From: a virus
IMG/VR virus record: IMGVR_UViG_3300028298_000013
Span: 1 to 42,977 of that record
Length of the DNA stretch: 42,977 nucleotides
Direction: 5' to 3' (one strand)
This document shows, piece by piece, positions 5,221-42,977 of this stretch. How positions within the stretch are numbered: the first letter of the stretch is position 1; each line of letters starts with the position of its first letter. Position numbers and translations under genes: made by a program. The notes below the pieces were generated by a model that searched no databases, was not told the origin of the DNA, and was given only the letters and a program-made list of their open reading frames with translations.

Positions 5221-5221
5221 A

Positions 5222-7020: not shown

Positions 7021-7027
7021 ACCTCAG

Positions 7028-7328: not shown

Positions 7329-7330
7329 GA

Positions 7331-9729: not shown

Positions 9730-9754
9730 TTCCGTTCCTCCTTGTTAGATTGGT

Positions 9755-11627: not shown

Positions 11628-11628
11628 G

Positions 11629-11895: not shown

Positions 11896-11898
11896 AAA

Positions 11899-13446: not shown

Positions 13447-14229
13447 CTAGATGAGAGCGCGATCGGCATCGGATTTAATCCTTTCTTTTTTTGCTTTCAA
13501 AACCTCGTTCGCGGCCTTCGCTTCCGCGGCTTGAATATCGTCTTTCTCCTCTTGGGAAAGCTCTCCCGGAGGGATCATTTCAACGACAGGGCCGGCAAGG
13601 ACCGGTTCCGGGATCTTCGGCTGGGGCATCACGATCGGATCTTGGCCTCCGACGATCTGAGATTCGATAATGCGCTCCCCTTCATCGGGGTCGTAGATCC
13701 CAGAGAAGCCATAGGCCACGCGCGCGCATTGAATTATCGCCTTGTGCCTCAACATACGGCGAGGAAAATTCTTCCACGGCTCTTTGTTTCCGTTAAAACA
13801 TTCCTCCATGTACTCCGTGACCACGGTGGGATGAGTGCGCCCCTTCGTGAAAATCGTGGCCGTGATGCTTTCCACATCGGTCTTGGACGCGTTCTTCTGT
13901 CCGTCCTTGGCCTTGTTCTCTACCGTGGTTATTCCGTCATGGTCAAATTCCCCCGCTTGGTTTCTGTGCTTGTTCATGAGGGAGATCCATCCATCGACCG
14001 GAACGATCGGGACCACGCCGCCACCCTTACCGCTGAACGCGTAAATCTCTTTCAAGAGCGGGTTCAGTTGGTAGGTATTTGCCACAATGACGCAAGCCAC
14101 GAATTCCTCCGGCGTCTTGCAATCTTTAAAGGCGGTCATTTGCAGGGTCTTTTGAAGCTGCGTTGAAGATACTTGTAAGCGCGCGGCCATAGATTCGATA
14201 GCCGTTTTTCTTGCGAGTTCATTTGCCAT
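13447..14229 (-). CDS. bet: Bet/RecT-type single-strand annealing protein
   Basis: Encodes 260 residues, ATG at 14229. The core shows the Bet/RecT pattern: FVACVIVANTYQLNPLLKEIYAFSGKGG, then VPIVPVDGWISLMNKH, later VTEYMEECFN, PWKNFPRRMLRHKAIIQCARVAYGF and GIYDPDEGERI. Such proteins anneal complementary single strands at replication forks or resected ends. The C-terminal 70 residues are Pro/Glu/Lys-rich and probably flexible. Its start overlaps the end of the RlpA-like gene by 11 bases. The symbol refers to the lambda Bet family, not to strict orthology. Confidence 0.9.
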   Translation of the reverse strand: MANELARKTAIESMAARLQVSSTQLQKTLQMTAFKDCKTPEEFVACVIVANTYQLNPLLKEIYAFSGKGGGVVPIVPVDGWISLMNKHRNQAGEFDHDGITTVENKAKDGQKNASKTDVESITATIFTKGRTHPTVVTEYMEECFNGNKEPWKNFPRRMLRHKAIIQCARVAYGFSGIYDPDEGERIIESQIVGGQDPIVMPQPKIPEPVLAGPVVEMIPPGELSQEEKDDIQAAEAKAANEVLKAKKERIKSDADRALI

Positions 14230-14737
14230 GTCGTTTCTCCTTTTTTGTTTGTGTGGGGATTCGTTCGACTGTTACCACGATCATTCCTTTCTTTAGATCG
14301 GAGATTTGTCCGAAAGCAAATTTCCCAAGATCAATAATTCGAGCAAGTCTTTTTGACGGTCCATGATCGAGGATTTGCACCACGACGGATTTAGAATTTT
14401 CTTTATTCGTGACACGCACTTTCGCCCCAAGGGGGTACGACCATGAAGCTGCAAACAAGACTCCTTTTTCTTCGAGGGCATAGAGACTCTTTCCGGACGC
14501 GGTGAGACAGTCCTTTGTGTAGATTTTTTTGTGGGGTTCCGTACAGGCTTCCGTGGAATACCATGACGCTTTTCCAGTTTTGATCTCAGAAGCGGAGAGG
14601 TTCCCAGAGGCTCCGGACACGACGAGAAACGCCGTGATGAGGCACAATAAAGGCCTTGTCCTTTTACCAACTGGGAACGTTTTTGAGATTGAGTTTGATC
14701 TTATTGTTTTCATCATCATGCAACATATTACGACCAT
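14219..14737 (-). CDS. Secreted RlpA-like double-psi beta-barrel protein
   Basis: Up to 172 residues from ATG 14737; the triple ATG at about 14719-14711 is an alternative and no start has a strong site. A positively charged stretch then LLCLITAFLVVSGASGNLSASE forms a signal peptide. The mature part carries GKASWYSTEAC, TASGKSLYA, AASWSYPLGAKVRVTN, VVVQILDHGPSK and RIIDLGKFAF, the RlpA/DPBB hallmarks. RlpA of some bacteria is a peptidoglycan lytic transglycosylase acting on denuded glycan. As no other cell-wall enzyme is seen, this is the best endolysin candidate, reaching the wall by the Sec pathway. It could instead be a non-lytic wall-binding protein. Confidence 0.78.
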   Translation of the reverse strand: MVVICCMMMKTIRSNSISKTFPVGKRTRPLLCLITAFLVVSGASGNLSASEIKTGKASWYSTEACTEPHKKIYTKDCLTASGKSLYALEEKGVLFAASWSYPLGAKVRVTNKENSKSVVVQILDHGPSKRLARIIDLGKFAFGQISDLKKGMIVVTVERIPTQTKKEKRHGK

Positions 14738-22300: not shown

Positions 22301-23984
22301 TCTTCGCTTTCACGTTCTCCGCGGATACTTGATTCATCGGGAGCGCGAGCGTGTCCCCGGACGGCGCTTGGAACTGGATCTGCGTGGGGACGATCGTTCC
22401 GTCCTTTTTCGTGAATCCGGGCAAGGATCCCAGCCAAGTACCGCCTCCGGCCTGTATAATTGGCTCAAACGCCTCTTGGATAGGGGTTTTTGCCACTTTC
22501 CCTCCCGTTTGGGGAGGTTTCTGCGTTTTGGGGGCTGGTGTGGCCGGTTTGGATTTGGATGGCTCATATCCAATTTCTGAGAGTTTTACTCCGGGCTTCG
22601 TCGGTCTTTCCGTAACGACCTTTTCCGGGGTCGCTTTCAGTCCGATCGCTTCTTTCAGAGATTTCCAGTACGGACGGTCCCGGAGCGTCGTGATCTTCTC
22701 GACCGGGACCTTTATCGTGACGCCTTTCGTGAACGCTTCCTTGTAGCCTTTCGCGTTCAGTCCGAGGCCGGTGACGAGATCCAGTTCTTCCGGGGTGATG
22801 GGGTTCCCTGTCTCGCTTGGGGTCCCGAAAATGCTGCGGATCTTCACCGGGTCGATGAATACTTCGCGCGGGAGATTATATTTGTTGATGATCTCTCTCG
22901 TCAGATACTCCGAAATCTTCGGAGCGCGTTTCCCGATCCCTCCGAGAAGTAATCCTTTCCCGATAAAATCAATCATGTCAACGACAGCGGCCGTCGCTTC
23001 GGACGCTTGCTCCGGAAGGAGATCCGATATCCCTTTCCCAGCGCCGAGGATGTACGGTCTTTTCTTTATGGAGGAAACGACTTTGTTCTCGATCTCGTCG
23101 ATCGCCATGAATCCAGCGACGCCCAAAGCGACGCCGATGGGGTTCGACATAAGACCGATCGCGACCAATCCGGTCATGGGAATACTCAAAAACTCCTCAA
23201 ACGTCGGTGTATCCGGCCTCATTCCGGTGATCTCCGGCCTCCGAATCAGTTCCTTGTATTCCTGTCTGATTTCTTCAAGGGGTATCCCTTTCCAATTCTT
23301 GAGAGATTCTTCGCGGCCTTCGACGACGCCCTCTCCCAGCTTCTCTTTCATGAATTCCGGAGCGTTTTTGTAGATATGATCGAGGCGCGCTTCCCTCTCA
23401 AGATTCTGCTGGATCGCGTAGATATTATGAGATTTCGCGTTCTCGACCGCGGGATCTGCTTTATACGCGCCGGACTCCTCCGCGGCGTAATGCGCTGCGC
23501 CGGTCAATCCTCCCATGACGATCTTTCCAAGCCCTTCCATGACCGTCTTTTTGTCCGGCTTTGGAGGTCCGATCTCAAGCTCGTTCCTTCTCAGTTCCGG
23601 CGGGAGAAGTTTATCGGCCATCTGCGATTCCGTGAGTTCCTTTTTCGCCACGGTCGCGTCATACATTGCCTGTTCTTCCGGGGTCTGTGGCTTCGGCGCT
23701 TCTTTCTTAAACCGGGTACTGGACCAGTTCTCCGGCTGGTTCTGTGCCGCTTCTTGCTTCGCGATCTCCTGCTCCTTGGCGTAGGCAGCTTTCTGCTGAT
23801 CCTCAAGCTCCTTCTTCCGTTTGTTAAGAGTATCCTCAAGAGCGTTGTCGTCTTGGACCGGCGGCTCCGCAACCTTCGATAATTTCATAGGGGATCTGGC
23901 GGGAGCGGAGAGCGTGGACAGCTTTACAGGACCTTTTGGAGCGGAGATATCTGTATCGGTAGAATCAAGCGACGACAGTTTCAT
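16365..23984 (-). CDS. Giant polyvalent protein with RadC-like, zincin-like and LPD38-like parts
   Basis: Encodes 2,539 residues (about 18% of the genome), ATG at 23984 with AGGAGC. Residues 1-110 and 455-790 are charged, low-complexity linkers with repeated KLSx(L/V/I) strings (2-6, 21-25, 34-38, 467-471, 726-730). Around 250-310 there are hydrophobic glycine-rich segments. At 1263-1276, HNHPSGKVEPSPAD gives the HxH...D metal site of RadC/JAB domains. At 1549-1556, HEFGHGLD is a zinc-metalloprotease motif. Residues about 2090-2450 resemble the LPD38 region of phage polyvalent proteins (NFTIDQISA; membrane-like TYLAITAALLG). Such proteins are packed in the virion and delivered into the host. 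It follows two ejection-type genes, supporting that role here. Confidence 0.85.
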   Translation of the reverse strand: MKLSSLDSTDTDISAPKGPVKLSTLSAPARSPMKLSKVAEPPVQDDNALEDTLNKRKKELEDQQKAAYAKEQEIAKQEAAQNQPENWSSTRFKKEAPKPQTPEEQAMYDATVAKKELTESQMADKLLPPELRRNELEIGPPKPDKKTVMEGLGKIVMGGLTGAAHYAAEESGAYKADPAVENAKSHNIYAIQQNLEREARLDHIYKNAPEFMKEKLGEGVVEGREESLKNWKGIPLEEIRQEYKELIRRPEITGMRPDTPTFEEFLSIPMTGLVAIGLMSNPIGVALGVAGFMAIDEIENKVVSSIKKRPYILGAGKGISDLLPEQASEATAAVVDMIDFIGKGLLLGGIGKRAPKISEYLTREIINKYNLPREVFIDPVKIRSIFGTPSETGNPITPEELDLVTGLGLNAKGYKEAFTKGVTIKVPVEKITTLRDRPYWKSLKEAIGLKATPEKVVTERPTKPGVKLSEIGYEPSKSKPATPAPKTQKPPQTGGKVAKTPIQEAFEPIIQAGGGTWLGSLPGFTKKDGTIVPTQIQFQAPSGDTLALPMNQVSAENVKAKISALEKKYREAEKGGGETPESEEKKGPKKISSKKEKIDEEQDRVSYVYAGGSKIVKIKTDPKKAIVQLKEGIEHNKVAAKESTKILEDLKKNGAKEISENDIRLAGGDEKLALERAINMVRGHVEHNMSQIEQYKREIARLESGTPPAVVKVVDHGATPKKKPVKLSQVEKPAKKKLPPHLQEIADKTKGMTDVTPPGFGPEAKPDFGAPSRTAEDFELNPKKMADLKKGYVAISYKGKVFAAKIGSTLNGVKIFNHADLIEAKNIDFFDKKLIPGFISKAGKFVEQYPPEAKVIKVRPQRKFDVQKAVDAGDIKTIVIAYGGLNRKAEIFKNFAPSELKKISFLFKAVTKKTGRNPDDMLQSLAEEYPQLFGQYESDHQMIRALIDGTADKRMDVDKLIAEKEALDAKDAAEYDPATAAEADRIAKEELDAERSNREREAGAGDQWEAVKGATPEDDIHFFGEIVRNGRRRPLAIVGQKLVLDQKTPFMATNNSGEGSKVIGNYQTLEEAKAGVEKFFESKGVKEQGDLFGEEPTRKKREFGEARSLKQQAEVPTDLEKVGIDEKQLKMFPTSETEAAHGSEAKKEANHKKVLDSTKKAVVKVGDKYKSVYKSPFALRFKETGKLSFPSLVWDGNPASLAFAFRFLHEEAVENFWIGFMKDGVIQAVELHATGTVDEAAVHPYEMLGLGDHVQADQFFLVHNHPSGKVEPSPADLDITAKITSVLGPQGIEYAGHLILEGDQFGYLSAKKTPQVLTHEQYAATKDVGVFKKYLEWSAGEKTIIPGVGEHVRSPQALFDLAKGIQTGDNEGLLVLLDKGMRILNVLIFPKGQLSGVEAVRYAARARATGIVTINSGLNGDNYLPVKKELSKIGVRFFDNVEVLDANSYRSWSEHNAMDPGETYGPKGISEGTSASYGSGSLDEYEKQVKAAGKVKGFKLFEAFKALGKKYVSIIGERYIGAKGAAGTYKHSTDTVRTVALNAATVVIHEFGHGLDFKGKIVDEILRKTGTSKSGNPIYDSSTLQIRKEMTDLYTNHYTGGLKTHKLEVRMREGIATLLQKYIEKPSVMLANYPTLVKEFLEPGGRFYKPVTTAFLKDVQAVISQYQSLDDLGKVAARVTTDPQQTGLGKDTFLNFIERINTFWADNVFPISKMAGEAGVEMTAQDPALWLRMYNNSNALILNNIKGGRGYWTLAGDAFKKIHDFNWKNVIESLQKNGKVDDFGYWLVARDQHFQYKDLAKKKEEARLAVEALKTYAEMAGEGMNMAGDRSLQEAIEEAKGIIQRYEDLKKVLAKNGFSESVVTKAFEDHKDVFKDEADQFDKLVRADLQLLADPTVGLITPKQYAEYSSKEGYASLKRDVYDEVLGDEDQLIPVKVGKTRISSIISRKGSELTIINPLYNAIRNHAEIVRKSLKQIVYNKIGKLAKNVPGLIQQQPLKRPYDPRTKKVSYPQEKDPNIIMARDANGKRVPYLVSSFIKKVVDEILEFRNIGIFEELLTSFNRIFSKGTTGLYAPFTVTNFTIDQISAVAQTRNNYIPVYDALNEVLRTIANRQGQDYRFFEEYMILGGEKQTFMGWQDMNPSELFKKISGEKNVIMHILGAIEAGENILGLPSKYSEIITRASEYIKARKAGKPQIVALEEAGEVTAPFHHTGQLGGGSLGKTVVKSIPFFNPGIQVFAKYLRTMTGEKSRNRAIFTYLAITAALLGSQYYLYEKASRKQKDQYNDLQPEELSNNIFLPNPWGDNLIKIRIPQQMSGVGTIINMALANHYRSANYTAGDFIAAGTQILPTQANLSDPVKAFYSWIPQILKPLIEVTANVRTFPKVIPLEGMSQKNKTPGQRFTQGTLPLPKWMGRKLGVSPIMVQHLFLGYMGRVARPVLGEVPFSKDSSYNPLVKKYYFQFGRMVQRYYDIKERNAQILGDYKNDRIKLSDAEYGAAVERRGIIKGIEKEMKEFKQEESNYSREFVLDEIKRLIETK

Positions 23985-29720: not shown

Positions 29721-29963
29721 TTATGTGGATCTGGATGAACTCGAACTTGAGCTGCTGGACCGAGACGAACTCGAACTGGATGAACTTGATGAACTCCGGG
29801 AGCTGGACGAGCTGTAAGAACTCGAAGAACTCGAACTCGAAGAACTCGACGAACTCGAAGATGACGAGGACGATTTTGAGGATGAGGAGCTGCTTGACGA
29901 GGAACTCGACGAGGATACCGCGTATCCTTCCGCTCGTATTCTCCAAGGATCACATTCTGACAT
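29721..29963 (-). CDS. Poly-serine protein, 80 residues
   Basis: ATG at 29963 with GAGGGGGC. After 16 ordinary residues (MSECDPWRIRAEGYAV), the rest is serine with occasional Lys, Tyr and Arg. Serine is encoded by mixed AGY and TCN codons. It is the smallest of five poly-serine proteins in the genome. It may be a linker or a surface brush; poly-serine stretches are typically flexible, and serine is an O-glycosylation acceptor. The functional claim is inference. Confidence 0.7.
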   Translation of the reverse strand: MSECDPWRIRAEGYAVSSSSSSSSSSSSSKSSSSSSSSSSSSSSSSSSSYSSSSSRSSSSSSSSSSSRSSSSSSSSSRST

Positions 29964-29972: not shown

Positions 29973-31178
29973 TCATGAATTTTCTGGAAGAAACACAGGA
30001 TCTCTAACAGGAATAGATTCTACACAATTTTCTGTTCTGCCGGGCCAAGAGTTTTGAACTTCCGGAGCAAAAACAGCATCCCGGATAGGGATTTTTTCAG
30101 AACAATTTTCCGGACGTCCGGGCCAAGAGCTATTTAACGAGGAAGAACTACTAGACGAACTTGAAGAGCTTGATGAGCGAGACGAACTAGAGCTGGAAGA
30201 ACTACTCGAACGAGATGAGCTGGAAGAACTTCTGGAACTCGACGAACTCGATGAACTGGAACTATAAGAACTTGAACTGGAACTCGAACTAGACGAGCTG
30301 GAACTGGATGAACTAGACGAGCTGGAACTCGATGAGCTTCGAGAACTGGATGAACTTGAACTCGACGAACTTCTCGAACTTGAGGAGCTAGATGAGCTTG
30401 AACTCGACGAACTGCTTGAACGCGACGAGCTGGACGAACTACTGGAACTCGACGAACTTCTCGAACTTGAGGAGCTAGATGAGCTTGAACTCGACGAACT
30501 GCTTGAACGCGACGAGCTGGACGAGCTTGAACTTGAAGAACTCCTTGAGCTTGAGGAGCTGGACGAGCTTGAACTTGAAGAACTCCTTGAGCTTGAACTG
30601 GACCGACTCGATGAACTGGACGAGCTGCTAGAAAGTGAAGAGCTTGAGGAGCTGGAACTCGACGAACTGGCGAGAGTTTCCATCATTGCAAGTTCGTCAA
30701 TAGCAACGTATGCCCCATATTCAGCCGACGACTCAGTGATGTTTATTCGGTAGTAAGAATAAGCATTTGTGTTTGAGAACGTATACTCCTTCACCTCACT
30801 TGATGTGAAAGTTTGATCTGTTTGAGTATCCAAAGTAGTCCAATCAGATCCGTTATTGCTTCCTAAAAATGTCCAGTCTCTAGGGTATAGACAACCTTCA
30901 TTTACCGGCATATTCCTCGATCTGATGGTGTATTTTGTAACCGTCTTTGTCGAAGGAAATTGATATTGAAGCCAGTGAGGATAACCAAGCTGTGAGTGCC
31001 AAACAGGGTAGCCATTAAGCTGATACGGAGTCTGTCCGGAAAGGGGAAGCTCCTTATTAAACGCACGGAAAGCCTCAGTAGACCCATCACTAGTTACAAG
31101 ACAAGTGCTTGCGCTACACGTCCCGCTCGGAGCGGTATCTGAAGTCATCACAGGTATGATATCGTCGCTGTATGCCAC
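29973..31178 (-). CDS. Discoidin-like domain plus poly-serine plus C-terminal repeat protein
   Basis: Encodes 401 residues from GTG 31178 (GAGAGG). Residues 1-165 resemble an F5/8 type C (discoidin) carbohydrate-binding domain: AFNKELPLSGQTPYQLNG, WLQYQFPSTKTVTKYTIRSRN, PRDWTFLGSNNGSDWTTLDTQ, YYRINITESS. About 180 serine-rich residues follow, with Arg, Leu and Tyr interruptions. The last 50 residues hold two related units (SWPGRPENCSEKIPIRDAVF and SWPGRTENCVESIPVRDPVF). It could be an adhesin, with a sugar-binding head and a stalk. Confidence 0.78.
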   Translation of the reverse strand: MAYSDDIIPVMTSDTAPSGTCSASTCLVTSDGSTEAFRAFNKELPLSGQTPYQLNGYPVWHSQLGYPHWLQYQFPSTKTVTKYTIRSRNMPVNEGCLYPRDWTFLGSNNGSDWTTLDTQTDQTFTSSEVKEYTFSNTNAYSYYRINITESSAEYGAYVAIDELAMMETLASSSSSSSSSSSLSSSSSSSSSRSSSSSRSSSSSSSSSSSSSRSSSSSSSSSSSRSSSSSSSSSSSSSSSRSSSSSSSSSSSSRSSSSSSSSSSSSSSSRSSSSSSSSSSRSSSSSSSSSSSSSSSSSSSSSSSSYSSSSSSSSSSRSSSSSSRSSSSSSSSSSRSSSSSSSSSSSSSLNSSWPGRPENCSEKIPIRDAVFAPEVQNSWPGRTENCVESIPVRDPVFLPENS

Positions 31179-31215: not shown

Positions 31216-32175
31216 TTAAACGTGATCCGGATTATCATTGAGATCTTTCGTAGCTTTTTTAACTGGACAATCCTCAATTCGCTGCGCCCAAGGAAGGACC
31301 GACTCTGGGATCGCTGGATCTTTGGACGCCTTCTTATCGACACAAGGACCGGGAATGAGGACCCACCGGTGATCATGGGACGATGAACTGCTAGACGAGC
31401 TTGAAAGACTTGAGCTTGAGGAACTGGACGAACTTGAACTGCTGCTCCGGGATGAGCTGGAGCTGCTGGAGCTGGACGAACTGCTGGAGCTGGATGAGCT
31501 GCTTGAACTTGACGAGCTAGACGAGCTAAATGAGTACGAAGAACTTGATGAACTTGAGCTGGACGAGCTTGAACTGCGAGAGCTTGACGAACTTGAAGAA
31601 CTGGATGACCGGGACGAGCTTGACGATCTCGAAGAACTGCTAGAGCTGCTCGAACTGCTTGAGCTAAGAGAGCTTGAGGAGCTGGAACTGCTGCTGGAGC
31701 TTGACGATTTCGACGATGACGATGAGCTGGAATGGCTGCTGGAACTCGACGAGCTTGAGGAACTGATCGAGCTAGACGAGCTTGAGGAACTGGAGCTGCT
31801 GATCGAGCTGGAACTACTGCTGGAGCTGGAGGACAGGGATGAGGACGATGAACTCGATGAGCTTGAGCTTGACGACGAAGAACTCGATGAAGAAGAAAAC
31901 GAAGAACTGCTGGATGAACTGGAGCTTGACGAAAAACTGGAGCTTGAGCTGGAGCTTGAGCTGCTGGAGCTGGAGCTGCTGGAACTCGAACTCGAACTAC
32001 TGGAGCTGCTTGAAAAAGAGGAACTGGAGCTGGATGAACTGGAGCTGCTACTGGATGAAGATGAGGAGCTAGACGAGGACCGGCTAGACGATGATGAGGA
32101 GCTGGAAGCCTCCCCATCGTAAAGCGATCTTGAATCCTCGTATTCTGCTTTTGGCGCGTCATATATGATTGACAC
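31216..32175 (-). CDS. Long poly-serine protein, 319 residues
   Basis: GTG start at 32175 with AAGG 9 bases upstream; an ATG two bases earlier is in another frame. A 23-residue head (SIIYDAPKAEYEDSRSLYD) leads into about 245 residues of nearly pure serine with isolated Arg, Phe, Ile, Leu, Lys, Tyr and His. The tail HDHRWVLIPGPCVDKKASKD and PWAQRIEDCPVKKATKDL has two Cys-containing units related to those ending the previous protein. This is the longest serine tract. Likely a virion surface stalk. Confidence 0.72.
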   Translation of the reverse strand: MSIIYDAPKAEYEDSRSLYDGEASSSSSSSSRSSSSSSSSSSSSSSSSSSSSSFSSSSSSSSSSSSSSSSSSSSSSSSSSFSSSSSSSSSSSFSSSSSSSSSSSSSSSSSSSSLSSSSSSSSSSISSSSSSSSSSSISSSSSSSSSSHSSSSSSSKSSSSSSSSSSSSSLSSSSSSSSSSSSRSSSSSRSSSSSSSSSSRSSSSSSSSSSSSSYSFSSSSSSSSSSSSSSSSSSSSSSSSSSRSSSSSSSSSSSSSLSSSSSSSSSHDHRWVLIPGPCVDKKASKDPAIPESVLPWAQRIEDCPVKKATKDLNDNPDHV

Positions 32176-32181: not shown

Positions 32182-32505
32182 TTACCTTGTGAGTTGTCCG
32201 ATTTCTACAACGTATGATGCTTTTACGAGATCTTGTCGTTCCTTCGTCTTTCGCTCCGGACAGATCCACGTCAAACACATTTCAGAACGTAACTCTATTG
32301 GGAGGAGACAGCCTTCCTTCCCTAAAAACCCTTTCTTGTTCCAGCCGTACTTATCTTTCAACTCCTGCAATTCCTTTGGATCAATGATGAAGTAATGACC
32401 ATCCGATCCGAAGCATTGCTCGCAACACGCAAAGGTCGTACACCCCGCACAGATATCCTTGAACACGTTCTCAATCTTACTTGCCGAGGTTAATTCAATA
32501 GGCAT
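32182..32505 (-). CDS. YkgJ-like cysteine-rich metal-binding protein
   Basis: Encodes 107 residues, ATG at 32505 with GGAGCGAC. Cysteines are arranged CAGCTTFACCEQC near the start, then EGCLLP and MCLTWICPE further on. This CxxC-x4-CC-x-x-C plus downstream cysteines matches the YkgJ-type zinc- or iron-chelating family. The biochemical role of that family is poorly defined. It lies among the poly-serine and beta-rich genes rather than in metabolism and overlaps the previous gene by 16 bases. Confidence 0.7.
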   Translation of the reverse strand: MPIELTSASKIENVFKDICAGCTTFACCEQCFGSDGHYFIIDPKELQELKDKYGWNKKGFLGKEGCLLPIELRSEMCLTWICPERKTKERQDLVKASYVVEIGQLTR

Positions 32506-34676: not shown

Positions 34677-35519
34677 TTAAGGCTCCTCAGATTGTGAGCT
34701 GGAACTGGAGCTGGACCTCGAAGAACTGGACCTCGAAGAACTGGAACTCGAAGAACTCGATCTCGAACTCGAAGAACTGGAACTCGAAGAACTGGACCTC
34801 GAAGAACTGGAACTTGACGAACTGGAACTTAAAGAGCTGGAACTCGAACTTGAACTCAAAGAACTCGAACTCGAACTCGAACTCGAAGAACTAAACGTAG
34901 GAGAAATTAATAAATTTAGAGTGAGAAGCCACGTCACATTGTAGTCCGTGGGATCCTCGTCAAAACTGAGAAAAATTACCATCCCCGGAGGAATAATTCC
35001 GGTCCCTCTAGCGGATAATGACATGTCCTCTCTTGAAGATTTTCCGTGATCGCTATCAATGACGTCAATGAGCGTGACTCCAGTTCCCGGAAACGGTCCA
35101 TCCCCGCCGTCGCAATATTTTAGGTTTGCATTTATTTCCGTCGTCGGATCGCTTTCAGAGGAGTCCAGATACCAAGAAAGAATTGTCACTCCGTTTGGAA
35201 ACGCCAAGACCGAGCGTTTAAGATCTAGGAGCCGCCAATCAACTTTTACGTTAAAAAGCGCTCTGAAATCTCCTGAGAGCTGAAGCGGTTTTGTCGCTCC
35301 ATAACGTAGATCCGCGGCCGAAAGACCGCTTACAACCTTTCCAAGAGCGTCCGTCGCAAGAACCGGGATGGATGGGATGGCTTTTATCGTCGCGTTCCCA
35401 GAAGCATCGATATTGAGACTCTCGTCCGGGGCAGCGAGATCCACCCCAACGACACGATGGAGCTTGCTATGCGACGGCGCGTCTAATTTGTCTGTTGGAT
35501 TAGGTTGCGAGACAGCCAT
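34677..35519 (-). CDS. Fibre-like protein with poly-serine tail, 280 residues
   Basis: ATG at 35519 inside the end of the GT9 gene (37-base overlap). The first 205 residues include PNPTDKLDAPSHSKLHRVVGVDLAAPDESLNIDASGNATI, a phage fibre-type start, and a beta-rich domain (TILSWYLDSSESD, LIDVIDSDHG, MVIFLSFDEDPTDYNVTW). The last 70 residues are poly-serine with Leu and Arg interruptions, ending SQSEEP. It adjoins the glycosyltransferase cassette directly, which makes its serine tail the closest acceptor candidate. Confidence 0.75.
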   Translation of the reverse strand: MAVSQPNPTDKLDAPSHSKLHRVVGVDLAAPDESLNIDASGNATIKAIPSIPVLATDALGKVVSGLSAADLRYGATKPLQLSGDFRALFNVKVDWRLLDLKRSVLAFPNGVTILSWYLDSSESDPTTEINANLKYCDGGDGPFPGTGVTLIDVIDSDHGKSSREDMSLSARGTGIIPPGMVIFLSFDEDPTDYNVTWLLTLNLLISPTFSSSSSSSSSSSLSSSSSSSSLSSSSSSSSSSRSSSSSSSSSSSRSSSSSSSSSRSSSSRSSSSSSSQSEEP

Positions 35520-36307
35520 TTTTTTACTTCCCCTTGATAGTCCTTCAAATTCGCAATAGCGATATTCTCTTTCGTGAAATGCTCTCGTTTCAGATCCTTT
35601 TCGAGAAGCATCACTCGATCCGGTCCTAAGATCGAAAGCGCGAGGTGAAAATTCCCGCCCACAGTTCCAATAAAAGCGTGGCAGCTAGAGAGTAGAGCCA
35701 TAAGCGTTTCAAGTTTGGCCGGACACCCACGAACGTGAGCATCCACAAAAGAATAAAGTTGATTGTCGGGATTAGCAAAGCAATGAATAAATTGAGTTTC
35801 GATAGGGACATACCCCGCCTCCTTGATATCGTTCCAGATCTTTTCAGCGACCTCAAGATCCGCGTTTGCCATCCAAGGGACGGACGTACATTGAAAACAG
35901 ACCCCAACGAGCTTTTTAGCTCCGATAGGAACGTGACCGCACACCGGAGGGATCCCGATCTCCACTTCGCAAGAAACTTCCGCTTTCGTCTTGGTGAGAT
36001 CGTCAATCCTCTCAAGCGGGAAATTGATAGGGAACACCAGATCAAAACCGAGAGTAAGCGCTTTCTCCCGCCAATCGCCATCGAGAAGGACCGCTCCGGG
36101 AACGAACTTTTCTTGATCTAATCCCCTGCATAACCCAAGAGAAAACTCGATATGCGGATACAGTTCCCGAAGTTTTTCGACGATTGGAAGGACCATCACG
36201 ACGTCGCCGACCCCATGCCAGAAGGGAAGAAGAACGGTACGGAACTTCCCGGTATCGAGATGCTCCGCGAGTTTCATTCCGTTTGTCGCTTCAGTAATGT
36301 AACTCAT
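35483..36307 (-). CDS. GT9-type glycosyltransferase
   Basis: Encodes 274 residues, ATG at 36307 overlapping the previous stop by 4 bases. The pattern FRTVLLPFWHGVGDVVMVLPIVEKLRELYP, ending CHAFIGTVGGNFHLALSILGPDRVMLLE, matches the GT9 (heptosyltransferase-like, GT-B fold) family. It is short relative to typical 320-360-residue members. The donor and acceptor are unknown. It may glycosylate the virion's poly-serine proteins or the host surface. It is the last gene of the sugar and methyl-transfer cassette. Confidence 0.8.
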   Translation of the reverse strand: MSYITEATNGMKLAEHLDTGKFRTVLLPFWHGVGDVVMVLPIVEKLRELYPHIEFSLGLCRGLDQEKFVPGAVLLDGDWREKALTLGFDLVFPINFPLERIDDLTKTKAEVSCEVEIGIPPVCGHVPIGAKKLVGVCFQCTSVPWMANADLEVAEKIWNDIKEAGYVPIETQFIHCFANPDNQLYSFVDAHVRGCPAKLETLMALLSSCHAFIGTVGGNFHLALSILGPDRVMLLEKDLKREHFTKENIAIANLKDYQGEVKKWLSRNLIQQTN

Positions 36308-37302
36308 ACCAGCTCTTTTCCCATTTCTTCATACGTTTGATCCGGGAGGCCGTCGGTCGTGTATTCCTTTGTCGCGTCGATGACGATAGGACCGGCAAGA
36401 CATTTCTTGAAAAACTCGTAAAGACAGTTCATGGATCCTTCGGCCATAGCGTCGCAACATTCCGTTGCTTTGAGATAGCCGGCGGCGCAGCCATGCCGGT
36501 TAATGACCTGCTGTTTTCTCCATTTTTTCGTATAATACCGGCCGTGGAAAATAAAGATAGGTTCCCCGGATTCGGTCCAAAGAAGTCCGTCGCTCTGAGT
36601 CGTAACGCGCGTGTACGGTTTCAGCAGCTTCTCGTTACTTCCCACCCAACACATGTTAGGTAGCAGCACAACGTTTTTAGTGAGATCCTCAGCGACGAGG
36701 ATCATGTTAAACGCTTGCTGATCCGGGGCTTTGAAGTTATTAACAGGATATCCCCAAGTGAAGATATCCCACGCTTTTCGGAGCTGCGGTCCGTATGTTT
36801 TCGCGTTTATGAACATCGGGGTACAGCACATGTCTTGTGTGTTCCACGTCGGAGTCTTTACCAGATGCTCGCCAAGGACGCGCTGGTGATCATGGCCTTG
36901 CTCATCGGTCCCATAGGTCGTTTTCTGTTCCAGAGTTACGCCTAGGATCGTCCCAGAGGCCGCGATTCTGAAAAAGGCGCCCATATCCCTAACCACGATC
37001 ATATCCGCGTCCAGAACCACGATAGCGTCGTATTCTGACCCCCATTCCGCGGCTAACCAGTAACGTTTTCGGCATAAAATCTCCGATTCTCCCCCAAACT
37101 CGCGGGCGTCGGCCTCAGAAATTGGATGATGGATGATTTTATAGCCGACTTTCCCGAATTGCTGGACGAAATCCTCCGGGAGATTGAAGCCGTTGACGTG
37201 AACGTCGTGGACGTTGTGAACGTTTTCGAGACTGTTAAGAAGCGCGCACAGTTCCGGGACGTATTTCTTGCAAGCGGATACGATAATTCCGTATTTAGGC
37301 AT
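36304..37302 (-). CDS. GT-A-type glycosyltransferase (GT8-like), DAD motif
   Basis: 332 residues from ATG 37302, which overlaps the previous stop by 8 bases; the frame open to 37362 has no site. PKYGIIVSACKKYVPELCALLNSL is the nucleotide-sugar entry fold. VVLDADMIVV (Asp 98, Asp 100) is the metal-binding DxD motif. NTQDMCCTPMFINAKTYG, APDQQAFNMI and IFIFHGRYYTKKW match the later parts of GT8-like enzymes. It probably transfers a sugar from a nucleotide donor with divalent metal. Donor and acceptor cannot be inferred. Confidence 0.8.
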   Translation of the reverse strand: MPKYGIIVSACKKYVPELCALLNSLENVHNVHDVHVNGFNLPEDFVQQFGKVGYKIIHHPISEADAREFGGESEILCRKRYWLAAEWGSEYDAIVVLDADMIVVRDMGAFFRIAASGTILGVTLEQKTTYGTDEQGHDHQRVLGEHLVKTPTWNTQDMCCTPMFINAKTYGPQLRKAWDIFTWGYPVNNFKAPDQQAFNMILVAEDLTKNVVLLPNMCWVGSNEKLLKPYTRVTTQSDGLLWTESGEPIFIFHGRYYTKKWRKQQVINRHGCAAGYLKATECCDAMAEGSMNCLYEFFKKCLAGPIVIDATKEYTTDGLPDQTYEEMGKELV

Positions 37303-38416
37303 AGATCCACCAAGTTTGATCGTGTCCTTCGTGGACGTCGATCCCTTGCAAGGTTTGGTCAATCGCTTCCTTCACGGTCTGGAAATCATGACCGCCGAGG
37401 ATCCCGCCGGGCTTCACCATCTGAAGGCCATGCTCGATATCCCGGACCACGGTCGAAACGGTGTGATCTCCGTCGATCCAAACGAAATCGACTTGCTCGT
37501 TTATCTCTTTAAACGCGTCGTCGCTCGTCATGGGCATGATTTTTACGCGATCGCCATACACTTTTAACGCGTTTTCCGCGTGTTCGCGCATGGTCGTCAT
37601 TTCCTCTTGCGGTCGGGCGGCTTCAAACGTGTTTCCCTCTTGATGCGTCCAAGGATCCACCGTATAAAGCCCGATATTCTGACATTCTGAGAGGATCGCT
37701 TTGGTAAGACAGCCGTAATGCGTCCCGATCTCAAGTCCCAACACCTTTTTATCGCCAAAATGCTGTTTTAAAAGGTCGAGGACTTGTCCGTGATGGCTCG
37801 CGATCCGTTTTTTCTTGAAAAGTTTCATGTCCCCGCCAACCATTTCCCATTCCGCGTTAGGAAAGAACGTTTCCTCACCCATATTTGGATCATGGAGATA
37901 GATGAACTGACTTGAGACTTGCATAGCGATCCAAACTTCGCGGGATCGCTCTTGCGGACCGTCAACGAACACGAAATTCCATTTCCGGCCGGGATAAAGC
38001 TCCATAACCGGAGGATTCGTTCCGTATTCGTAGGCGTGGAACTTCGCTTTATTCTTTCCTGAGTAACTCGCTCGCATGGAACTGCATTTTGCGAGCATGG
38101 CGATATGAAAATCCAACACGTCAAAACTCACCAGATCAAGACCTTCGAGGAAGAAAAGTTCGCTTGAAAGACCGGCGCCAAGCTCCAGCACCTCAGAGAT
38201 ATGATTCTTCCGGATCAGTTCCCGGAGATTTTCCCAACAACCGGGAGCGAGCTTCCCGCCACCCCAATTTATGTTAATCACGTCCCCGCTGATTCTGGAT
38301 CCGATGAACCTTTCGACCTCAAGAAGATCGAACGGGCAAAGATTATACGTCTTTCCAAGGCAAACCAGAGCGCTCGTCCCCTCGTCTTGATCTCTCTTGC
38401 AAACGTCGCAAATCAT
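37295..38416 (-). CDS. Tandem two-domain methyltransferase with zinc-ribbon-like start
   Basis: Encodes 373 residues, ATG at 38416 right after the previous stop. MICDVCKRDQ with LVCLGKTYNLCPFDL near the start could form a zinc ribbon. The first Rossmann-type domain shows ISEVLELGAGLSSELFFLEG and FVFVDGPQERS. The second shows VLGLEIGTHYGCLTKAIL, LYTVDPWTHQ, VDFVWIDGDHTV and GGILGGHDF, as in Methyltransf_24-like enzymes. Two SAM-type domains in one chain may give two sites or one degenerate regulator. Substrate unknown. Confidence 0.75.
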   Translation of the reverse strand: MICDVCKRDQDEGTSALVCLGKTYNLCPFDLLEVERFIGSRISGDVININWGGGKLAPGCWENLRELIRKNHISEVLELGAGLSSELFFLEGLDLVSFDVLDFHIAMLAKCSSMRASYSGKNKAKFHAYEYGTNPPVMELYPGRKWNFVFVDGPQERSREVWIAMQVSSQFIYLHDPNMGEETFFPNAEWEMVGGDMKLFKKKRIASHHGQVLDLLKQHFGDKKVLGLEIGTHYGCLTKAILSECQNIGLYTVDPWTHQEGNTFEAARPQEEMTTMREHAENALKVYGDRVKIMPMTSDDAFKEINEQVDFVWIDGDHTVSTVVRDIEHGLQMVKPGGILGGHDFQTVKEAIDQTLQGIDVHEGHDQTWWIYA

Positions 38417-39067
38417 CTAATCCCTCCAATGTCTTTTAGATTCGTCCCAGCCTTCCATTTTACGGAAGATGCAAAGCCCGTAACATGAGAAGATTCTGAC
38501 AAATTCAAAGTTAAATACGCCCTCGTCGATGAGTTTTTTTATAGCGTGAAAGCCTTCTTCTGCCGGTCCGAAACAATCGTGCATGATCCAGTAGCCTTTT
38601 CCTTCACCCTTGAGCTGCGGATACATGGTTTTGATCTCTTGGACGACATGCTCCGTATCATGGCATCCGTCTTGAAAGATCACGTCAAAGAGAACGTCCT
38701 TAAACGTGTCTGGAGTCAAAAGCATCGAGTCCAGCTCCCGGATATCCACCGGCAATCCTTTCGCCTCAAGCGCGGCCCGGACCTTCTCTGTCTGAACGAT
38801 ATCAATGCCGTAATACTTGTTCCCAGCCATTCCGTAACGCGTGGCGTTATCCTTGACAGCGTTCGCGAGATAATGAGCGGTGTATCCTTCCGCGTGACCG
38901 ATCTCTAGCACTTGTTCCGCGCCGATATCGCGCAGGAGGAAATACATCATCGGTCCGAAAAACGAGATCGTTGAGTTGATATTCGTGTGATGCAGCTCTT
39001 GAACTGCTTGCATAACCGGAGCTGGATACTCCCCAAAATATTCTATGTCTTTTTCATGTGTGAGCAT
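38417..39067 (-). CDS. Class I SAM-dependent methyltransferase
   Basis: Encodes 216 residues, ATG at 39067, overlapping the previous gene by 14 bases and ending one base before the next ATG. EQVLEIGHAEGYTAHYLANA is motif I, YYGIDIVQTEKVRAAL motif II, FDVIFQDGCHDTEHV motif IV and YWIMHDCFGPAEEGF follows. The pattern fits sugar or small-molecule methyltransferases as well as others. The neighbours suggest methylation of the transferred sugar (inference). Confidence 0.78.
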   Translation of the reverse strand: MLTHEKDIEYFGEYPAPVMQAVQELHHTNINSTISFFGPMMYFLLRDIGAEQVLEIGHAEGYTAHYLANAVKDNATRYGMAGNKYYGIDIVQTEKVRAALEAKGLPVDIRELDSMLLTPDTFKDVLFDVIFQDGCHDTEHVVQEIKTMYPQLKGEGKGYWIMHDCFGPAEEGFHAIKKLIDEGVFNFEFVRIFSCYGLCIFRKMEGWDESKRHWRD

Positions 39068-39614
39068 TGACCCACTCCTGTAATGGTTTAGGATCCGAAA
39101 CGTGACATTGATCGTCGCTCATTGCGGGATTCAAGAAGCCGTCCTTGTCCGCATATTGATCGTAAAGGTCAATGTAGGTATACGGAAGTTTCTTTAAGCC
39201 ATCGTTCATGCGGCGCACGAAGGAAAGACGCTCCTGATCTGATCCGAGGAAGGGATAATCCGGATTCTCCGCTTCCACGTGAGGAAGTCCATCCCGGCGT
39301 GGAGGAGGAACGCCGTAATTCACCCAAACGCGTTTTGGATCCCGGCCGACCGCGTTCGCGTCCAGAGCCAGTTTGTAATTCTCCACAAGTTTGTCGATCG
39401 TTTCCTCCCAAGGCGGGAACTTATGGATCTGACACCGGCAATCAATCTCTCCATACGAGAATACGACGACATCCTCCAAAGGAACTTTGCTGGTCATTAC
39501 CGGCTTGTAAAATCCGAAATGATAGAGCGTCATCGGTCCCGGAGAGAACGGCATTGTATTCTTGATCTTGAGCCAGCAATGCCACGCGTGAGAATCGCCA
39601 AACGTGTAGATCAT
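39054..39614 (-). CDS. SGNH-like hydrolase or acyltransferase-type protein
   Basis: 186 residues from ATG 39614, which overlaps the previous TGA (ATGA); the longer open frame to 39662 is poor. It begins MIYTFGDSHAWHCWLKIKN (GDSH block I with nucleophile Ser), has DVVVFSYGEIDCRCQIHK (block II/III-like) and ends DDQCHVSDPKPLQEW where the Asp-x-x-His catalytic pair is expected (here D-x-C-H). This is consistent with an SGNH-fold enzyme that may add or remove acyl or acetyl groups from sugars. Family fit is moderate. Confidence 0.68.
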   Translation of the reverse strand: MIYTFGDSHAWHCWLKIKNTMPFSPGPMTLYHFGFYKPVMTSKVPLEDVVVFSYGEIDCRCQIHKFPPWEETIDKLVENYKLALDANAVGRDPKRVWVNYGVPPPRRDGLPHVEAENPDYPFLGSDQERLSFVRRMNDGLKKLPYTYIDLYDQYADKDGFLNPAMSDDQCHVSDPKPLQEWVNAHT

Positions 39615-40261
39615 TTTCGGAACGCCCACGCGACCCCCTTCCCGGCCATGTTCTGATGCCATTCGTATTCAGACTCATGCTCCTCTTTGAATTGCTGCCA
39701 AACGTCGATTAGCCCGCACTCTCCGGGAGCGTCCGAGATATCATCGAACACGATCACGCCACCGGTAGCAACAAGGGAATGAACGGATTCTAGGTCCTCG
39801 CGCGCCGCGGCCTTGGAATGATCGCCATCGACGAGGATGTAATCAAAGAGATCCTTTTCGAGATAAATCATCTTCGGAAGGAAGTCTTTTGACAAGCCGA
39901 CCAAGAACTCAACTTTCTCGACCGGGAGATTAAGACACCGCAAGTTCTTCTTCACCAGCTCCGCGGAGGTGTAAGGATCGTTAAAGGGATCAATGCACAC
40001 GACTTTTTGAATCTTTAATTGATCCACGAACGAGCTGAGAAGCTGGCAGAGAGAAATCCCGGTCCTTGTTCCGATCTCTAGGATGCGCGCCGGATGTTTC
40101 GTGCTTCCAATCTCCCAAGCGAGCATATACTGATCGTAGAAATTCTCTCCGTTTCTCTGGAGATGTCCCCAATAATTTTCGTAATAACAGTCTCCGGGAT
40201 TCTCGCGTTTCAAGATCCGAAGTGTGTTAAAGATCACCGCTTGCAAGAGGATGTTAGGCAT
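39611..40261 (-). CDS. Class I SAM-dependent methyltransferase (Methyltransf_24-like)
   Basis: 216 residues from ATG 40261, overlapping the previous stop in the string ATGCCTAA, the same overlap found at the GT-A gene start. PARILEIGTRTGISLCQLLSS is motif I, KVVCIDPFNDPYTS motif II, FDYILVDGDHSKAAAREDL and GGVIVFDDISDA follow. This is the CmcI/Methyltransf_24 style. It lies between the methyltransferase-GT9 fusion and the SGNH-like gene. Substrate unknown, possibly a glycan. Confidence 0.8.
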   Translation of the reverse strand: MPNILLQAVIFNTLRILKRENPGDCYYENYWGHLQRNGENFYDQYMLAWEIGSTKHPARILEIGTRTGISLCQLLSSFVDQLKIQKVVCIDPFNDPYTSAELVKKNLRCLNLPVEKVEFLVGLSKDFLPKMIYLEKDLFDYILVDGDHSKAAAREDLESVHSLVATGGVIVFDDISDAPGECGLIDVWQQFKEEHESEYEWHQNMAGKGVAWAFRK

Positions 40262-41867
40262 GAAGCACCCCACCGAGGTAATAAAGCTCCATGGCCCGGA
40301 CGATATCTTCCGGCCGGATCATATCCATACAGAGAGGAACGCCGGAGACAAGATGCTTACATTCCTCCGTCTTGGATTGCCAGCAGCCGTCATACAGCGC
40401 GCAATCCATCGTTCCATTCGTATAGAGGAACCGATGGGATGGATAAAGCTCCCAGCGCGTCCCTTCCCGGCCTCCGGCGACAACGACGCATGGTTTCTCT
40501 AAGGCTGCGGCAATGTGCATAGCGAAGGAAACGCATGAAAGAACGCCCTCCGCTTTCTCGATCACTCGAAATAGATCCCGGATGCCAGTTTTTCCTCGTA
40601 AGTCGATGGCGCCGCTCAATGGTTTGTGATTGTGTTCGGCCTGTCCGACTTGCACGAGCTTAACATCCGGGAATTTTGACGCCCATAAATCCACCACTTC
40701 CTGCCAGCGGTGATATTGCTTGAGCGTGTAATCTGATTTTGAGCCGGCGTTAATGACCCAATATTTTCCGTCATAGCCGGTGTGTTTTAGGACCGGGCTG
40801 GGCCATAATTTCTCGTCCTGCGTCAAAAACACGTCTGGAAGTAATCCGACGCGGGGTATCTCAAGGTCTAAGACCGTTTCGAGATATTTCCTGTGACCAT
40901 CACTAAAGTGCCGACCACTCGCGCCGGATTTATTTATCTCCGGATAGTGCATGTCAATGACTTGCCCGACTCCGTTCAGTTTCGTAAGGAAAGGACTGTT
41001 CTCAAAGATCTCGTTGCAAGGTGTGTCAACGTCGATATAGAATTTATTGCCATGCGCGTCATGCAACGCGCGGATCGCGACGGACATGACGAGAACATCA
41101 CCCGGAGAAAGTCTGTTTCTGAGGATAATCCCGCGTTTTGAGGGTAGAGGAGAACACTCCCGACCGGTAGATACCGCGGCAGAGAGCGGTGTAGCGTCAA
41201 AATCATTCTGCAATTTAGGCCGGGAGCGGAAAACCTTCGCTGGATGCGGTAAATCGCCCCAGATCATACGCTCCACGACCGGCTCTAAGGCCGTTGTACG
41301 CTCGAAAAGATCGCTTTCTTCCGTGAAAAATCGGGATATTTCCTCGCGGATGTTCACGCCCAAGAAACGATCGTCAAAAAATCCACCTCCGTCAAATCGG
41401 ATTGCCATTCGATAGTCGGATGACGCGTAAATGAGGAGTCCACCGGGCTTGAGAAAGGTGTGGATCCGTGATAAGACATCTCGTAATTCAATAGCGGGGA
41501 CATGCTGGAGACAATAGATGCAGTATACAAGGTCCACCTTCTGATTTAATTCGTTTGGAAGGATTGGAATGAACCGGCTATCGTTGACGTATTCTTTCGC
41601 GATCTTGAGCTGATGCGCGGATGCGTCAAGGCCGAGGACCGTCACGTTTGGATCTTGTTTGAGGATTTCTTTCGCGAGCCGGCCGACCCCGGTCCCATAA
41701 TCGAGAATCGTGAATCCAGCTTTGCTTTCCGCTCTCTCTAGGATCGCTTTCGCGAACACAGGAGTTTCCTTCTCCCATCGTTCTCTTGCCGGGATCCCGT
41801 TGCAATCGCCCACGGTGTTATGAATCCCTTCTTCAAGCGACTTCGCTCTGAACAGATCGTGTTCCAT
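40254..41867 (-). CDS. Methyltransferase-GT9 fusion protein
   Basis: 537 residues from ATG 41867, with AAAGGGG spaced 8; a GTG at 41876 lies within that site and is less likely. Residues 50-180 are a class I methyltransferase: FTILDYGTGVGRLAKEIL (motif I), VTVLGLDASAHQL, VDLVYCIYCLQHVP and KPGGLLIYASSDYRM. From about residue 245 to the end is a GT9-type domain: GIILRNRLSPGDVLVMSVAIRALHD, YWVINAGSKSDYTLKQ, KLVQVGQAEHNH, HIAAALEKPCVVVAGGREG and DGCWQSKTEECKHL. Fusion of sugar transfer and methylation suggests one modified glycan. Confidence 0.82.
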   Translation of the reverse strand: MEHDLFRAKSLEEGIHNTVGDCNGIPARERWEKETPVFAKAILERAESKAGFTILDYGTGVGRLAKEILKQDPNVTVLGLDASAHQLKIAKEYVNDSRFIPILPNELNQKVDLVYCIYCLQHVPAIELRDVLSRIHTFLKPGGLLIYASSDYRMAIRFDGGGFFDDRFLGVNIREEISRFFTEESDLFERTTALEPVVERMIWGDLPHPAKVFRSRPKLQNDFDATPLSAAVSTGRECSPLPSKRGIILRNRLSPGDVLVMSVAIRALHDAHGNKFYIDVDTPCNEIFENSPFLTKLNGVGQVIDMHYPEINKSGASGRHFSDGHRKYLETVLDLEIPRVGLLPDVFLTQDEKLWPSPVLKHTGYDGKYWVINAGSKSDYTLKQYHRWQEVVDLWASKFPDVKLVQVGQAEHNHKPLSGAIDLRGKTGIRDLFRVIEKAEGVLSCVSFAMHIAAALEKPCVVVAGGREGTRWELYPSHRFLYTNGTMDCALYDGCWQSKTEECKHLVSGVPLCMDMIRPEDIVRAMELYYLGGVLHA

Positions 41868-41875
41868 TTCAATCA

Positions 41876-41889
41876 CCCCTTTTTATGTG
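41876..41889 (-). promoter_or_regulatory. Leader motif CACATAAAAAGGGG, copy 3
   Basis: The third copy of the motif seen at 406-418 and 794-806. It lies directly before the start of the methyltransferase-GT9 gene and provides its Shine-Dalgarno. It follows a hairpin at 41901-41935, the same hairpin-then-motif order as upstream of the gene at 396. Confidence 0.4.
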
Positions 41890-41900
41890 TGTGAGGTTAG

Positions 41901-41935
41901 GGGGCGCGTACCCCACAGAGTGAGGTACGCCTCCC
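41901..41935 (-). terminator. Hairpin between the 105-residue gene and the cassette
   Basis: Bases 906-912 of this kilobase (41906-41912) pair perfectly with 41924-41930. The stem extends outward by 41901-41904 with 41932-41935 across one mismatch, around an 11-base loop. It lies 6 bases after the stop at 41942 and 12 bases before the leader motif. No T-run follows on the minus strand. Weak termination, RNA processing or message stabilisation are possible. Confidence 0.55.
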
Positions 41936-41941
41936 GTTTTA

Positions 41942-42259
41942 TTAACCGTTCCCGTCATATCCGATCGCGCAATCCATCTCTCCCGCGGTTAAAGACGGGA
42001 GATAATACAAGCCATCAACAAACTGAAGGCCGACTGATGGAAGAACGACGTTTATTCCGGAATTATTCGCCTCGTTCAAAGTGACTTGACAGATGAGTTT
42101 AGCGCTTGCGCCAACCCCATCATACAAAAACACTTTGTTTCCGGCGGTGACTCCGCGCCAACTCAAGAACACCGAGTAAAGATTTCCGACCCCGGTCATT
42201 ACTTGAACTGCCGCGGATGCAACCTTCGAGAACTTCACTCCTTGCGGTCTGGTAGCCAT
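41942..42259 (-). CDS. Small structural-type protein, 105 residues
   Basis: ATG at 42259 with AAAGGGGGATG. The sequence is beta-rich and Gly/Val/Ala-rich (AAVQVMTGVGNLYSVFLSWRG, KVFLYDGVGASAKLICQVTLNE, GLQFVDGLYYLPS, MDCAIGYDG), resembling small phage decoration or tail accessory proteins. It is between the poly-serine gene and the sugar cassette. No family is certain. Confidence 0.75.
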   Translation of the reverse strand: MATRPQGVKFSKVASAAVQVMTGVGNLYSVFLSWRGVTAGNKVFLYDGVGASAKLICQVTLNEANNSGINVVLPSVGLQFVDGLYYLPSLTAGEMDCAIGYDGNG

Positions 42260-42270
42260 AGCATCCCCCT

Positions 42271-42977
42271 TTAGGCGCTAACACTCGACGAGGATGAACT
42301 CGACGAGGAGCTTGACGAACTCGACGAACTCGACGAGGACGAGGATGAACTGCGGCTGGACGAGGAGCTACTCGATGAACTGCTGGATCTGCTTGAACTC
42401 GAAGAACTTGAGGAACTCCGAGAACTGGAGGAGCTTGAGCTTGAGCGACTCGAAGAACTTGAGGAGCTGCTCGAACTAGAAAAACTCGTCCCGGAGGAAC
42501 TTGAGGATGAGCTTCTACTTGACGAGGAACTACTCGAAGAACTGGAGCTGCTCGAACTCGACGAGGAAGAACTCGAACTCGATGAAGAACTGCTCGAACT
42601 CGATTTGCTGCTTGAGGAACTGGAGCTTGAGGAGCTTGAACTGGATCCGGACTCAACGATATCTGAAACGGCGAACGCGGACTTGTAATCTGTTCCGGTC
42701 ACTCCAAGATCGCTATCAAGTGACCCTAGAACCGCGTTAAACATCTCAATCCAGAGATCGCAAAAGCTGACGAGCGTCACGAAAGAGTATCCGTTTGCTT
42801 GAATCTCGGATCCATATTCCCCAACAGCGCGTCTTTTTACTTCCGTGGTGGAGATCTTCCGCATGGTAAATGCGGTCGTTCCATTCACGGTTGTATCTGC
42901 GGCGAGAGTGGTGCAAAGAGCGTTAAAATTAACGAACAGCTTCCTGAGCATTGGATAAAGAGCTGCCCACGCCATTC
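42271..42977 (-). CDS. Poly-serine virion-type protein, C-terminal part (starts across the join at 396)
   Basis: The frame runs from the window end to a stop at 42271 and joins the reading frame at 1-396, giving about 313 residues. This end encodes the remaining part of the N-terminal domain (VGEYGSEIQANGYSFVTLVSF, LWIEMFNAVLGSLDSDLG). It then encodes a serine tract of about 120 residues from VESG, interrupted by single Lys, Arg, Gly-Thr and Phe, ending SVSA. An internal Met at 42975 is an artefact of the window edge, not the true start. The gene lies on the opposite side of the sugar cassette from the other poly-serine genes. Confidence 0.85.
   Translation of the reverse strand, partial: MAWAALYPMLRKLFVNFNALCTTLAADTTVNGTTAFTMRKISTTEVKRRAVGEYGSEIQANGYSFVTLVSFCDLWIEMFNAVLGSLDSDLGVTGTDYKSAFAVSDIVESGSSSSSSSSSSSSSKSSSSSSSSSSSSSSSSSSSSSSSSSSSSSRSSSSSSSGTSFSSSSSSSSSSSRSSSSSSSSRSSSSSSSSSRSSSSSSSSSSSRSSSSSSSSSSSSSSSSSSSSSSSVSA
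42817..42977. repeat. Terminal direct repeat, copy 2 (circular join)
   Basis: Matches 1-161 except for C at 42943 where position 127 has T. Both copies encode the same part of the poly-serine protein, and the difference is silent (Arg). It marks the point where the two ends of the contig overlap. Confidence 0.9.

Follow-up and report, generated by a model that had tools for sequence, protein, structure and literature searches.

The window analyzed here, the whole of a 42,977-nucleotide viral DNA (IMG/VR record IMGVR_UViG_3300028298_000013, positions 1 to 42,977), carries a cassette of seven genes, a glycosyltransferase (GT) and methyltransferase (MT) operon on one strand, flanked by five genes that encode long poly-serine tracts. 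We consider it likely that the phage uses this cassette to glycosylate its own particle, with the poly-serine tracts of its virion proteins as the acceptors of O-glycans. An initial annotation, made from the nucleotide sequence, had put forward such self-glycosylation. Its observation is confirmed, all genes that it named at the locus being present in checks of open reading frames (ORFs) and Pfam domains, and comparison of sequences supports the idea well. The window represents a circular phage genome, about 42,816 bp long, since positions 1-161 recur as 42817-42977 (a 161-bp direct overlap with one mismatch). The cassette and the poly-serine genes are the following.

40254-41876, minus strand: methyltransferase-GT9 fusion, GT9 domain at about 40254-41153 with a four-cysteine motif (Pfam PF13489, 1e-13; PF01075, 1.9e-5)
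39611-40273, minus strand: Methyltransf_24/TylF-like methyltransferase (PF13578, 1.7e-17; TylF, 4e-7)
39054-39662, minus strand: SGNH-like protein (GDSH and DDQxHVS motifs kept in two relatives; no Pfam match over the cut-off)
38417-39067, minus strand: Methyltransf_24 methyltransferase (PF13578, 1.3e-11)
37295-38416, minus strand: two-domain methyltransferase (PF13578, 4e-19, on residues 228-345; N-terminal half assigned by inspection, without a Pfam match)
36304-37362, minus strand: GT8-like (DxD) glycosyltransferase (PF01501, 3e-4, under the cut-off; LDADM motif invariant)
35483-36307, minus strand: stand-alone, second GT9-like glycosyltransferase (no Pfam match; HGxGD invariant in 6 phages)
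42271-42977, continuing at 1-396 (42817-42977 duplicates 1-161), minus strand: poly-Ser-1, C-terminal part, tract at residues 190-310
1-396, minus strand: poly-Ser-1, N-terminal domain, kept at 67, 60 and 37% identity in three relatives, adjoining the capsid gene
34677-35519, minus strand: poly-Ser-5, tract at residues 210-275
31216-32175, minus strand: poly-Ser-4, recognized by a 243-residue tract and a C-terminal W-x-x-R-x-E-x-C-type repeat
29973-31178, minus strand: poly-Ser-3, an F5/8-type carbohydrate-binding-like domain (PF22633, 1.5e-8), a 177-residue tract and a C-terminal repeat
29721-29963, minus strand: poly-Ser-2, 80 residues, nearly all tract by composition

The association between enzyme and tract was assessed starting from the enzyme. 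Three profiles, for the GT8-like enzyme, for the GT9 domain of the fusion, the module's central enzyme, and for the second GT9, were searched against IMG/VR blind to serine content, and a contig was scored as tract-bearing when it held an ORF with at least 20 serines in 30 residues. The searches returned 57 loci with the GT9-domain profile, 24 with the second GT9 and 6 with the GT8-like enzyme. At 80% identity the GT9-domain matches form 27 families, 25 of which have a poly-serine ORF on the same contig; six seed sequences were from poly-serine phages, and the remaining families were found through the enzyme alone. None of 120 random viral loci carries such a tract (maximum 19 serines; Fisher p about 3e-26 against the GT9 families), nor does any of nine contigs sampled near generic phage GT or MT genes. 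The GT9 loci have roughly double the length of the random loci, which cannot account for a contrast that large. The association is not confined to the window phage.

The association extends across phages with dissimilar virions. Among 61 cassette loci, only 11 show homology to the window capsid, whereas 50 share the GT8-like enzyme and 47 the second GT9, which argues that the three glycosyltransferases move as a unit between virion backbones; the SGNH gene is present in 9. Most GT9 families have no detectable capsid, portal or terminase in common with the window phage. The same holds for two loci added by the GT8-like profile, L373 and L374, both of which encode serine-rich proteins: L373 has a protein with 636 serines among 887 residues immediately downstream of the cassette, and L374 has a serine-rich C-terminus on a tail-tube protein. 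A search of 84,980 species genomes of bacteria and archaea gave only two matches, both with flanking poly-serine ORFs; these are metagenome bins and could be phage contigs. Among 50,697 cultivated phage records, none holds a GT9 homologue closer than 24% identity, and the module may have escaped notice for that reason.

The tracts reside mostly on parts of the virion where the protein family can be named. In a collection of 108 tract-bearing ORFs, free of redundancy and drawn from many phages, the named families include the Phage_tube_2 tail tube (5), baseplate wedge (5-6), cement, Dit-like and head closure Hc3 proteins, with F5/8, laminin-G and Ig-like domains in addition. In 68 of the 108, no more than 12 residues separate the end of the tract from the C-terminus. 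The tract-bearing wedge proteins are of the T4 type and match phrog_219, phrog_10646 and Phage_gp53. One contig, L110, has poly-serine C-terminal tails on five genes of its virion region (5142-12474), two of them cement-like, two tail-tube and one unassigned.

In the window phage the five tracts span 61-243 residues and are 91-93% serine, interrupted mainly by arginine, leucine and phenylalanine. The 688 serine codons of the five genes are distributed over AGT (138), TCG (130), AGC (123), TCC (115), TCA (112) and TCT (70). TCN and AGY codons lie two substitutions apart, so that the mixture of all six indicates selection on the protein; DNA slippage or simple repeats are thereby ruled out as the origin of the tracts. 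A 22-unit WSN pattern matches 77 times in the window and never in 100 shuffles. Poly-Ser-1, which the initial annotation had placed across the join, indeed reads through as a single open frame of 313 residues, once the ends are corrected for the 161-bp duplication. Its N-terminal domain (model pLDDT 77) has no fold match in PDB or BFVD and is an orphan, and none of the five poly-serine proteins matches a known virion family. The claim that the cassette modifies the phage's own poly-serine proteins is strongly supported by comparison, through the 25 families, the two sets of controls and the tracts on virion proteins elsewhere, but the description of these proteins as fibres is not. The W-x-x-R-x-E-x-C repeats, followed by K/R-D, stand after the serine tract at the C-termini of 29973-31178 and 31216-32175 and also in relatives, L131 and L132 among them; they are common to otherwise dissimilar poly-serine proteins and are possibly an anchor or a recognition tag.

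The genomic layout places the cassette among virion genes. Profile scans identify a portal of the P22 type (PF16510, 1e-84), a capsid protein with PF13252 and a terminase-like protein. On the minus strand the order is capsid (1846-824), poly-Ser-1 (396, across the join, to 42271), a gene for 105 residues (42259-41942), the cassette (41876-35483) and poly-Ser-5 (35519-34677), followed by two more proteins and a small cysteine-rich protein and then by poly-Ser-4, -3 and -2 (32175-29721). Within the cassette most adjacent genes overlap, and its final GT gene shares 37 bp with poly-Ser-5. Two further features belong to this region.

824-1846, minus strand: major capsid protein (PF13252, 8e-58; phrog_334, 6e-77)
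41942-42259, minus strand: small conserved protein of 105 residues, function unassigned, between poly-Ser-1 and the cassette (56, 49 and 41% identity in three relatives)

Capsid searches yielded three informative relatives (capsid identity 88, 84 and 63%), in all of which poly-Ser-1 adjoins the capsid gene. The two closest have all seven cassette genes in the same order, at 53-88% identity, for the most part higher than their terminases (71 and 51%). In the most distant relative, the GT9 portion of the fusion is retained together with the GT8-like enzyme, the second GT9 and two methyltransferases, but no SGNH gene is recognizable. Downstream, the N-terminal domains of the poly-serine proteins are freely exchanged among the relatives (glycine-rich, F5/8-type and others). 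The N-terminal domain of poly-Ser-5 is related to a long protein adjoining the GT8-like gene in L374 (30%) and to a gene in 63.8-kb phages (49%).

Features of the GT9 domain suggest a comparison with TibC, in which a four-cysteine iron finger (residues 339, 342, 358 and 370) is needed both to form the dodecamer and to heptosylate TibA (PMC4358343). The model of the domain (pLDDT 91) has the GT-B catalytic fold, and its best Foldseek matches are a Veillonella GT9, TibC (E 4e-12, TM 0.64-0.69) and WaaF, with near-equal E-values. In an alignment of 38 GT9 sequences, a C-terminal motif C-[AC]-x-[YW]-[DN]-G-C-W ... C ... P-x-C has two cysteines invariant and two nearly so, and P-G-D, an SPGD-type motif, is invariant; its aspartate is putatively equivalent to the essential D110 of TibC. 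Sequence-profile searches of the PDB found only heptosyltransferase II, weakly, for the GT9 domain, without reaching TibC, only a weak GT9 match for the second GT9 (3tov, E 0.49), and no useful match for the GT8-like enzyme.

Genes for the supply of a heptose donor accompany the GT9 in some relatives. Five groups have an HldE kinase-like gene upstream of it, a few genes away or less (regions L404 6336-9631, L374 395-2234, L417 7626-9903, L433 6262-9588 and L416 5666-8048), one of the groups lying on a contig that binning had assigned to a WOR-3 bacterium. At least three of them also have an HldE adenylyltransferase-like gene, and L404 has an HldD-like epimerase (4e-60). The split HldE-like genes score 1e-47 to 1e-59 for rfaE_dom_I and about 1e-48 to 1e-51 for rfaE_dom_II, and all HldE- and HldD-like matches fall under the NCBIfam equivalog cut-offs, as divergent members; HldE motifs are absent from all 120 random viral loci. 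Judged by homology, these genes, with the HldD-like gene of L404, likely constitute a phage ADP-heptose pathway, and they point to ADP-heptose as the donor. Together with the four-cysteine motif, they favour a TibC-like role for the GT9.

We hypothesize that the long poly-serine tracts, lying within or at the ends of several late virion proteins, would be dense acceptors of O-glycans, and that the cytoplasmic enzymes of the cassette would glycosylate their serines prior to virion assembly or in its course. Most probably, heptose would first be transferred from ADP-heptose by the four-cysteine-finger GT9, as in the TibC/AAH systems. To go by family membership, elongation of the glycan would fall to the GT8-like enzyme and the second GT9, and its O-methylation to the Methyltransf_24/TylF-type enzymes. 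The SGNH-like protein, possibly a sugar esterase or acyltransferase, might trim or acylate the glycan. The initial annotation had proposed a methylated, perhaps acylated glycan; of these, acylation is not supported by the distribution of the SGNH gene, which was found in few of the loci. We infer that serine is the substrate and heptose the sugar donated, and likewise the sequence of the steps and the benefit, for which the initial annotation had suggested disguise, adhesion or stability. More broadly, we regard as evenly balanced the proposal that a horizontally shared module, made up of the cysteine-finger GT9, the GT8-like enzyme, the second GT9 and methyltransferases, in some cases with ADP-heptose synthesis, hyper-heptosylates poly-serine tails on tail tubes, cement, baseplate and fibres across many uncultivated phage lineages. 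The tails would then form mucin-like brushes on the virion, a phage counterpart of autotransporter hyper-heptosylation.

The association was also assessed starting from the tract: contigs retrieved by two poly-serine DNA-pattern scans and one random pattern were scanned for three families, PF13578, PF01075 and PF00535. One or more of these GT/MT families occurs on 23 of 30 tract contigs versus 3 of 20 chance-match contigs, and pooled with a length-matched replicate the enrichment has a p of about 2e-5. Several results weigh against self-glycosylation of the tracts by this cassette. The replicate by itself is weak (12/25 vs 6/25, p = 0.07), adjacency of tract and enzyme is marginal (14 observed within 3 kb vs 9.8 expected, p = 0.057), and many poly-serine phage fragments have no recognized GT. 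Poly-serine proteins therefore extend beyond this set of enzymes, or different enzymes serve in other phages, or the fragments conceal the genes. Adjacency across unrelated poly-serine phages is not significant (Fisher combined p = 0.46) and is not used as evidence. GT relatives without poly-serine, which the initial annotation had named as counting against its idea, amount to 2 of the 27 GT9 clusters, and just one of these contigs is long (90 kb, no tract; the other is 22 kb, with none in the 20 kb read). Foldseek gives no separation of TibC from other GT9 enzymes (3tov, 1psw), so the near-equal E-values establish a GT9 fold without choosing between a protein and a lipopolysaccharide (LPS) acceptor. 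The cysteines are spaced unlike those of TibC, though their C-terminal position is similar. HldE was not recognized in the window phage, which would thus need to draw on the ADP-heptose pool of the host.

That the cassette remodels host LPS or another surface glycan, for instance for superinfection exclusion, with the tracts as unrelated flexible linkers, would fit the membership of the enzyme in the classic family of LPS heptosyltransferases, the Foldseek matches to WaaF and WaaC, the nature of ADP-heptose as an LPS precursor, and GT8-type enzymes, which likewise act on LPS. We consider it unlikely, however, given that GT9 and poly-serine are tightly linked over unrelated virion backbones, a linkage absent near generic phage GT/MT genes, that the cassette lies inside a late virion operon, its last GT gene overlapping a poly-serine gene, and that it has no standout membrane-spanning segment and no recognized membrane protein or flippase. 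Attachment of the glycan to phage DNA as hypermodified bases appears very improbable: phage GTs often glycosylate DNA, and the Methyltransf_24 genes of the cassette match a PHROG labelled DNA methyltransferase, but no base-hypermodification enzyme was recognized among the window proteins scanned (small ORFs being only partly covered), and the linkage to poly-serine virion proteins would be left unexplained. Bacterial poly-serine linkers are read as plain spacers. The tails could be bare, hydrophilic, flexible spacers or spikes while the sugars added by the enzymes go to other surfaces of the virion (capsid, tail or other fibre domains), and both the known inter-domain linkers, such as those of Teredinibacter turnerae (the term occurs in PMC2699552), and the poly-serine phages without a recognized GT are in keeping with this. 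Among dissimilar GT9 phages, however, the constant feature is the serine tract itself and no single virion domain, and we judge the spacer explanation quite improbable.

Glycosylation of the particle by the phage's own enzymes, the explanation that we prefer, has its closest experimental precedent in the mycobacteriophages, whose capsid and tail-tube subunits are reported to bear glycans at their C-termini (PMC12619734, citing Freeman et al. 2023). Phage-encoded glycosyltransferases are common to both, and the tracts of cassette or poly-serine phages likewise lie at the C-termini of tail-tube and cement proteins; a poly-serine acceptor, a core of cysteine-finger GT9, GT8-like enzyme and GT9, and ADP-heptose genes are not described there, in the text accessible to us. 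TibC/AAH (PMC4358343) resembles the module in the GT9-type GT-B fold, the C-terminal four-cysteine motif, the ADP-heptose supply genes, here in relatives, and a candidate protein substrate encoded near the enzyme. It differs, besides the spacing of its cysteines, in that the candidate substrate here is a virion protein and the GT9 is often fused to a methyltransferase, which forms the N-terminus in place of the N-terminal beta-barrel. No autotransporter substrate was recognized among the window proteins scanned, the neighbours being phage virion genes, and we reject membership of the bacterial autotransporter heptosyltransferases (BAHT) on architecture and substrate, although the enzyme may work alike. 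In serine-rich repeat adhesin systems, a serine-rich protein is flanked by its own GT genes, GT8-type ones included, with GtfA/GtfB and accessory GTs. The cassette shares the serine-rich protein beside GT genes, including a GT8-type one, but has no GtfA/GtfB-type GT or accessory Sec among its Pfam and NCBIfam matches, and its context is the virion.

The open-access literature, to which our search was confined, yielded no description of glycosylation in poly-serine phages, and the module looks like a new, widespread variant of virion glycosylation, so far demonstrated for a few mycobacteriophages. A recognizable module with an obvious acceptor would let sequence predict virion glycosylation in uncultivated phages and would allow the function of a phage's sugar coat to be studied. 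It would also provide an enzyme with a matching tag for the dense O-glycosylation of proteins, and it suggests that ADP-heptose, a precursor of LPS, is spent by phages on their own virions.

Other genes of the window are recorded here as separate observations. The small cysteine-rich protein amid the poly-serine genes (32182-32505) has no Pfam match and is possibly a metal-binding protein. An ORF of 2539 residues (16365-23984) probably encodes a giant internal or ejected virion protein; its residues 1210-1311 match a PHROG called DNA repair protein. Positions 13447-14229 encode a RecT recombinase and 14219-14737 a DPBB/RlpA-type lytic transglycosylase-like protein.

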